DNA of 64,000 nucleotides from Herbidospora cretacea (GTDB lineage Bacteria > Actinomycetota > Actinomycetes > Streptosporangiales > Streptosporangiaceae): positions 424,346 to 488,345 of the forward strand of contig NZ_BBXG01000007.1 of assembly GCF_001570605.1 (NCBI RefSeq), given 5' to 3'. The notes beneath the pieces were generated by a model. It was not told the DNA's origin. It was given only the letters and a program-made list of their open reading frames with translations, and did not search any database. This document shows positions 61,286-62,565 of this stretch, piece after piece. A program made the translations under genes and the position numbers. Position 1 is the first letter of the stretch. Every line of letters starts with the position of its first letter.

Positions 61286-61420
61286 AAAATACAGCATTTT
61301 GCGCGTATTACTGAAATGTCCAAAACCGTCGAGTGTTCGTTTGATTACTTGCGGTTATCGCCGCCCCAATGTGACCAATCCGTATCCGTTCACCATGACG
61401 ACAGTTCTCTGTGTGGCGGG

Positions 61421-61426
61421 CATCAT
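61421..61426 (+). promoter_or_regulatory. Possible -10 box before the sigma factor start
   Basis: CATCAT ends 7 nt before GTG 61434, the preferred start, with no ribosome site between. It fits the leaderless pattern seen elsewhere in the window, with weak support. Confidence 0.3.
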
Positions 61427-61433
61427 GCCTAAC

Positions 61434-62069
61434 GTGACCGAGGGATGCGTCGCCGACGCCGCAACTGGGGTAAGGCTTGCGATTGGGTCCAGAGTCGACG
61501 TGAGGCCGGAGGAGTCCGACCTCAGGGAGCTGACCAGTCTGGCCGTGACAGGGGACCGCACCGCCATCGAGAGGCTGCTGACGCAGCTGCGGCCGATGGT
61601 CGTGCGCTATTGCCGAGCCAGGCTTGGCAGGGTTTCGGGGCATTATCACAATGCCGATGATGTGGCCCAGGAGGTCTGCATCGCGGTGCTGTCGGCGCTG
61701 CCGCGTTATCGGGACATGGGCCGCCCGTTCGCGTCTTTCGTCTTCGGCATCGCCTCCCACAAGGTGGCCGACGCGCTGCGCAGTTCGGTGCGGTCGGCCG
61801 TGCCGACCCAGGATCTCCCCGACGGGCCCGACGAGAGGCCCGGGCCCGAGGAGACCGTGGTGCGGTACATCGAGGCCGAACACGCCCGCGCGCTGCTGTC
61901 GCGGCTCCCGGAGAACCAGCGGGAGATCCTCATCCTGCGGGTGGTCTCCGGGCTGTCGGCGGAGGAGACGGGCAACGTCCTGGGAATGTCACCGGGCGCG
62001 GTCAGAGTGGCCCAGCATCGTGCTCTTGCCCGGCTCCGTCAGATGGCGGAGCTAGAGTCGATTGCGTGA
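61434..62069 (+). CDS. SigD/ShbA-like ECF sigma factor
   Basis: A sigma-70 family factor. Region 2 is at about residues 45-125 ([46 protein letters not shown]) and region 4 at about 155-205 ([27 protein letters not shown], then [18 protein letters not shown]). The linker carries [13 protein letters not shown]. It is next to groEL1 as sigD is in mycobacteria, and Streptomyces ShbA is the related housekeeping-linked sigma. The start is uncertain: GTG 61434 (211 residues) is preferred over ATG 61425 or 61395. The stop overlaps the RsdA-like gene by 4 nt (GTGA). Confidence 0.9.
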
Positions 62070-62227
62070 CAATCGACGTTGACGCCGTGCTCGACGCGTT
62101 GGCCCGGCGCGAGGCGGTGCGGTCTTCCGATCCGGCGATCTCGGTCCTGCGTGCCCTGATCGCCGACGTGGACAGCATTCAGGAAGTTCAACGGCTCTCT
62201 TCGGTGTCGATGACGCCGTCGACATAG
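62066..62227 (+). CDS. 53-residue RsdA-like anti-sigma peptide (truncated)
   Basis: GTG 62066 overlaps the sigma stop (GTGA) and opens a 53-codon frame ending at TAG 62225. The first about 37 residues ([20 protein letters not shown], then [13 protein letters not shown]) match from memory the SigD-binding region of mycobacterial RsdA, where an LDALA-x-RE-x-V core is followed by DP and a helix with L-x-AL. RsdA is a membrane anti-sigma factor of about 300 residues coded directly after sigD. Here no membrane segment follows, and the last about 13 codons are antisense to the end of DUF5319. It may be a soluble mini anti-sigma or a remnant. Confidence 0.7.
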
Positions 62228-62565
62228 CCTCGGGCGTACTCCCAGCTGACGTAGTCGGCGGGGTCGGGTTGGAAGGCGGGCTCGTGGACCTGGGGCCGCC
62301 CGTTGTCGATCATCTGGCGTAGGTTGCCCCGGAGCAGGTCCCAGTCGAAGTAGTGCTGTTCGCCACATTCCGGGCAGTCGAGCACCAGCCCGAGCACCCC
62401 CTGTGGTTCGAGCAGGGAGCGGAACACCTCCACGTCGGCGAGGTCGGTCAGAGCCTCGTCGCGCTCGGCCATCGTGAGCGGTTCGGCGTCGTCGAGCTCG
62501 CCCAGCTCCACGGCGGGGTCGTTGGGGTCGTCCGCGAACGGGTCGCGGGGGACGTCTTCCAGCAC
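62188..62565 (-). CDS. DUF5319 protein
   Basis: A 125-residue protein from GTG 62565. The N-terminus is acidic (DPFADDPNDPAVELGELDDAEP). A CPECG pair precedes HYFDWDLLRGNLRQMID, and the end is [16 protein letters not shown]. These match DUF5319 (Rv3412 family), whose function is unknown. The order groEL1-sigD-rsdA-DUF5319 is conserved in mycobacteria. Its 3' end overlaps the RsdA-like gene by 40 nt in convergent orientation. TATGGT 6 nt before the GTG suggests leaderless expression. Confidence 0.9.
   Translation of the reverse strand: MLEDVPRDPFADDPNDPAVELGELDDAEPLTMAERDEALTDLADVEVFRSLLEPQGVLGLVLDCPECGEQHYFDWDLLRGNLRQMIDNGRPQVHEPAFQPDPADYVSWEYARGYVDGVIDTEESR

Follow-up and report, generated by a model that had tools for sequence, protein, structure and literature searches.

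Within a stretch of 64,000 nucleotides from Herbidospora cretacea (positions 424,346 to 488,345 of contig NZ_BBXG01000007.1; hereafter the window), a gene for an extracytoplasmic function (ECF) sigma factor of the ShbA/SigD type is followed directly by a short open frame, which runs at its 3′ end into a convergent DUF5319 gene (Table 1). We are concerned here with the short frame. It is a living protein-coding gene under purifying selection, not a product of decay, and by sequence comparison the match of its product to RsdA, the membrane-anchored anti-sigma-D factor of Mycobacteriales, is confined to the sigma-binding part. Because core and genomic place are common to both, but the helix and outer domain that define RsdA are missing, the short form appears to be a new soluble, clade-wide variant of RsdA, and we refer to it as mini-RsdA. 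A sequence-only reading of the window had already described a 53-codon frame of this kind, joined to the sigma gene by a GTGA overlap, and the frame is present as described.

Table 1. Features of the mini-RsdA locus, in positions of the window.
Feature	Position	Strand	Details
ShbA/SigD-type ECF sigma factor	61500..62069	+	189 aa from chosen GTG start at 61500
Soluble mini-RsdA gene	62066..62227	+	GTG start, 53 codons, TAG stop
GTGA start/stop overlap	62066..62069	+	GTG of short gene over sigma stop TGA (62067-62069)
RsdA_SigD_bd core, residues 6-33	62081..62164	+	PF16751 E=0.0014, below cut-off
3′ overlap, mini-RsdA gene/DUF5319	62188..62227	.	last 40 bases; basis: coordinates
DUF5319 gene, convergent	62188..62565	-	PF17252 E=2e-51

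The upstream protein matches the NCBIfam ShbA model (NF007230) with 284.6 bits, against a curated cut-off of 209, and in the PDB it matches both the ECF sigma factor of 9isn (E=3.9e-59) and the SigD chain of 3VEP (E=6.5e-14). Its frame is open upstream as far as a TTG at 61299, and its closest counterparts among the named relatives are the sigma proteins of six Herbidospora species (98%). Only 118 bases separate the sigma stop from the DUF5319 stop codon and, judged from the overlap, the last residues of the mini-RsdA peptide are dictated by DUF5319 codons.

The core of the short protein matches the RsdA_SigD_bd profile with 19.3 bits, so that our own copy falls below the Pfam cut-off of 26.7; among the 35 aligned members, our copy included, 25 reach E≤0.01, the best with 2.9e-6. 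A sequence search of the PDB returns a single match at E≤10, namely the RsdA of 3VEP (E=0.063). A hidden Markov model (HMM) built independently from the RsdA-type N-termini of more distant relatives (17 sequences, two of which, L025 and L028, are cut by contig ends; L numbers are our labels for loci) finds our own short frame with E=1.2e-10 and recovers 88 of 89 short-form frames, the top non-gene frame in the same regions reaching E=0.062. Four core positions, D, L, L and V, are invariant and equally spaced in the short forms and in eight membrane forms, and the predicted fold of the short protein alone has as its top PDB match, with weak scores, RsdA bound to SigD region 4 (3VEP). Two other assignments are chance matches: a family of phosphotransferase-system (PTS) transporters, at 14.9 bits against 632 in NCBIfam, and the sole match of the locus to known RNA families in Rfam, at 24.7 bits against a gathering score of 81.9.

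What the short protein does not have is a membrane helix. The highest mean Kyte-Doolittle hydropathy over 19 residues is 0.92 in our own copy and 0.86-1.27 in six Herbidospora copies, and the maximum is at most 1.52 in 78 of 79 named short forms; L101 alone passes 1.6 (1.81), in a stretch of repeated, aspartate-bearing helix. In the long forms that went into the profile, the maxima are 1.43-2.65. The extracytoplasmic domain is absent as well, since the frame ends inside DUF5319. Thus the earlier claims that the frame resembles the SigD-binding region only, that it stops before any membrane helix, and that its tail is antisense to DUF5319 are all borne out.

We estimated omega (dN/dS) from codon models on the tree of the sigma gene, for a core that lies upstream of the DUF5319 stop; the codon alignment comprises 82 of 83 distinct sequences, L096 having been dropped. 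For 31 core codons in the 82 sequences omega is 0.152, and twice the log-likelihood difference (2dlnL) against omega=1 is 488.6, or 309.1 under another frequency model. For codons 1-39 in 12 Herbidospora and Acrocarpospora sequences, that is, for the stretch upstream of DUF5319, omega is 0.107 (2dlnL 59.3, or 54.7 under another frequency model). Over the 82 sequences, the other two forward frames give 0.93 and 5.3 and are interrupted by stops in 41 and 38 sequences, respectively. The sigma gene itself has an omega of 0.015; the short protein is therefore constrained, but less so than the sigma factor. The same frame is open in all seven genomes of its genus (G000-G006).

The short form is also widespread, and the expectation that relatives would keep it is confirmed. 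The named set, which comprises the best 80 of 216 matches to the sigma protein and so is biased towards close relatives, contains 79 loci with a short form of 49-244 codons (median 68); the one remaining locus, Bailinhaonella L115, has a 346-residue form with a membrane helix. The 3′ end lies inside DUF5319 in 76 of the 79, and DUF5319 is convergent in all 89 short-form rows and in all 22 longer-form rows with a DUF5319 match. N-terminal extensions vary among genera (total lengths are mostly 49-117), are poorly conserved, and are absent in Herbidospora. In L109 and L128 the DUF5319-antisense tail seems to be present more than once, so that the tail is longer and contains repeats such as QRRSS. 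The gene had been thought easy to miss, which is only partly so: a database profile search (7994 candidates scored) found 199 proteins of the short kind at E≤0.01. Among the best 120 of these 199, the named ones are mostly called hypothetical, and a few, in Microbispora, Streptosporangium, Nonomuraea and Sphaerisporangium, are named anti-sigma-D factor RsdA.

Farther out in the family, order and class, long forms occur (for example, L021, L022 and L134-L144), and at other distant loci (for example, L029-L037 and L164-L179), as at L045, no RsdA-like frame was found within the stretch searched. We placed 101 rows chosen from the fetched loci, 32 of them short forms, on a tree of the sigma protein, omitting L115, which duplicates L021, as well as L025, L028 and L155, whose loci extend past the ends of their contigs. 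Thirty-one of the 32 short forms fall in one clade (support 100/99), nested among membrane forms; the clade also holds three lines without a short form (L130, L131 and L159), read as later losses, and adjoining it are the membrane form L021 and the short form L132. The tree requires three changes for the short state. On this topology, a change from membrane to short form is the simplest direction, and L132 may represent a second origin of the short form. Between the sigma stop and DUF5319 there are 110-698 bases (median 173) in the named short forms, against 635-1413 bases in those long forms where DUF5319 was found; the shorter spacing suggests that the missing part was deleted rather than shifted out of frame. 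Other lineages show other outcomes. L024 (149 codons) has a helix and a short outer part and overlaps DUF5319 by 36 bases, a separate partial truncation, and in L160, L162 and L023 the core has been lost outside the main clade, the sigma stop of L162 lying 8 bases from DUF5319.

Elsewhere in the genome, which is in 36 contigs and estimated to be 100% complete, we did not find a full-length rsdA. A profile of the eight membrane forms returned the short form (6.5e-8) and otherwise one match of 0.364 (150 of 181 candidates scored). Three further PF16751 matches (E 0.251-1.2) resemble, on inspection by eye, a sulfotransferase and two frames antisense to other genes. None of the four outcomes by which the earlier reading would have been refuted (lack of a profile match, absence from relatives, neutral dN/dS or a full-length rsdA elsewhere) has occurred.

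The GTGA overlap predicts translational coupling of the short gene to the sigma gene. A start within such an NTGA overlap is possible in 70 of the 79 named short forms (39 TTG, 30 GTG and 1 CTG), and in the remaining nine the start lies away from the sigma stop. Five of those nine are Streptosporangium (L088, L089, L102, L105 and L109); two further loci named Streptosporangium, L103 and L116, have a short gene that starts directly at the sigma overlap. Four Microtetraspora loci (L111-L114) have starts further in, and in two of them a TTG slightly within the sigma gene is available as well. Four further loci with displaced starts come from one genus (L019 and L147-L149) and, together with the five Streptosporangium loci, they make up nine that were picked because the short gene starts away from the sigma stop. 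At each of the nine, the sigma stop and the short gene are separated by about 80-90 bases, and through this interval runs a relay frame (27, 29 or 32 codons), joined to the sigma gene by a TTGA overlap and to the short gene by an ATGA overlap. With these relays included, 75 of the 79 named short forms are tied to the sigma gene by four-base overlaps. A similar relay, of 22 codons, is present at the long-form locus L133.

In these nine loci the relay has an omega of 0.78, which is indistinguishable from 1 (2dlnL 1.78), and the short gene has an omega of 0.208 (2dlnL 77.0). The simplest reading, given both overlaps and the length changes by whole codons, is that the relay's sequence is free and that its frame is kept so as to pass ribosomes from the sigma gene to the inhibitor. 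Against this reading, open frames of about 30 codons are not unusual in such GC-rich DNA, and the nine loci are related to one another. If the reading is true, the relay would offer a clean case of selection on coupling apart from selection on the peptide.

We consider it quite probable that the short product is a soluble inhibitor that clamps region 4 of the ShbA protein made just before it on the same mRNA; binding and inhibition are here inferred from the homology to RsdA. The tree and the spacing suggest that a deletion removed the membrane helix and the outer domain from an ancestor of the membrane type, after which the short gene would have ended within the adjoining DUF5319 gene. Ribosomes that end the sigma frame would, as the overlaps suggest, restart on the inhibitor, so that the dose of inhibitor is tied to the dose of sigma factor. 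A short helix and a long helix are predicted to dock on region 4 as in the SigD-RsdA crystal, and the short protein would be the directly encoded equivalent of the cytoplasmic piece released when membrane RsdA is proteolysed. No sensor is visible in the short form, and release would come by dose or by turnover of the inhibitor (for example, by a Clp protease) and not from an envelope signal.

It is important to weigh this soluble clamp against other accounts of the same locus. The frame could be an unused, decaying remnant of a membrane RsdA gene cut by a deletion, as the earlier reading had itself allowed. Decay or loss of RsdA is indeed seen in other lineages, and also in three of the lines sampled within the short-form clade: L130 matches the RsdA tail alone, and L131, L159, L160, L162 and L023 have no RsdA-profile match of note. 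For the short-form clade, however, neutrality is rejected in each of the three overlapping sets for which we give omega, and the core is in frame in all but one of the named loci despite the wide range of lengths; decay is therefore a very improbable explanation there. More doubtful still is that there is no protein at all, and that conservation comes from an antisense element or from DUF5319 on the opposite strand. The last 40 bases do lie over DUF5319, and in the antisense phase with third positions in common omega is itself low (0.233 in the 82 sequences, with stops in only one of them). Yet the core used in the test is upstream of the DUF5319 stop, and a low antisense omega is the expected echo of the sense frame when third positions are shared. 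This omega is higher than that of the sense frame in both sets (0.233 vs 0.152 and, over the longer stretch of the 12 Herbidospora and Acrocarpospora sequences, 0.453 vs 0.107), the antisense phase has stops in 11 of those 12, and the sense protein matches membrane RsdA.

Two alternatives accept the protein and differ as to what it does. It might bind ShbA and yet stabilise or recruit it, as a chaperone or co-factor, inhibition having been lost. The binding core has been kept and the sensor lost, and coupling to the sigma gene fits an obligate partner; on the other side, the conserved core is an inhibitor's, nothing newly conserved is seen in the alignment ahead of the DUF5319 overlap, and several lineages retain the sigma factor without the short form. 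We regard this as unlikely, although it is the alternative we would doubt least. We give rather less credence to a split anti-sigma factor, in which the short form acts at the membrane through a separate membrane protein that took over sensing. The genus-specific N-terminal extensions could serve to bind such a partner, but their poor conservation, their absence in Herbidospora and a tail set by DUF5319 codons argue against it; nor was a second RsdA-like protein found in the genome, a search that an unrelated partner would escape.

Upstream of the sigma gene, a leader at 61368-61482 is almost invariant across 29 short-form loci and is also recognisable in 7 of 20 other loci tested; by eye its changes are not codon-like, and it has no matching Rfam family. 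It may comprise the sigma factor's own promoter and 5′ leader. Genes of the principal-sigma type, which we take to be hrdB by assumption from their length and a PF00140 match, have a conserved block of their own in common in 19 of 20 stretches upstream of them (L229 was dropped from this set because it lacks the anchor). The strongly conserved part lies around CAGTCATAACGGTTGCTTTCGGGTATCGGTG (L210-L228) and is a candidate promoter. One pattern search and reading by eye found no motif common to the shbA leader and these upstream stretches. We also compared region 4 of the sigma factor for relaxation after loss of the anti-sigma factor, and the 16 pairwise counts are mixed.

A wider scenario is possible, which we hold with somewhat more doubt than belief. 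An ancestor within the Streptosporangiaceae would have stripped RsdA down to its sigma-binding hairpin, metered by coupled translation through overlapping frames and, in Streptosporangium, even through the near-neutral relay, which would serve only to pass the ribosome along. This would be a halfway stage in the change of an envelope-stress sigma factor to a housekeeping role, feeding the principal sigma gene; the end point would be full loss of the inhibitor, as in the sister lines that have the sigma gene alone. The Streptosporangiaceae offer a line in which to test the control of ShbA, and a view of how a stress switch may turn by steps into a housekeeping factor.

Control of RsdA through proteolysis at the membrane is well studied. 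In Corynebacterium, SigD is kept at the membrane by RsdA, which MarP and Rip1 cleave, and ClpXP is proposed to finish the process (PMC11175481). A clade of many genera with the clamp alone would show that an anti-sigma factor can persist once its sensor is gone; it would also provide a minimal inhibitor, about 50 residues long, of natural origin. In our searches of the open-licence literature we recognised no description of a soluble, short or helix-less RsdA, nor one of ShbA control in Streptosporangiaceae.

Three known systems bear comparison with the short form. Our sigma factor belongs to the same NCBIfam subfamily as ShbA of Streptomyces. In S. coelicolor, ShbA starts transcription in vitro of hrdB, the principal sigma gene, and of its own gene, and the authors of that study call the control of ShbA activity previously unknown (PMC9205884); in S. 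lividans, shbA reportedly could not be deleted (PMC6295645). The short form shares with membrane RsdA (PF16751, 3VEP) the predicted helices, the core that binds sigma and a position immediately behind the sigma gene, and in the loci examined long and short forms alike are followed by a convergent DUF5319; unlike RsdA, which is anchored in the membrane, the short form has neither helix nor outer domain. Soluble zinc anti-sigma factors such as RsrA resemble it in being small, cytoplasmic and encoded with an ECF sigma factor. They differ from it in their zinc/redox centre, whereas cysteine outside the last 12 residues is absent from 67 of the 79 named short forms.
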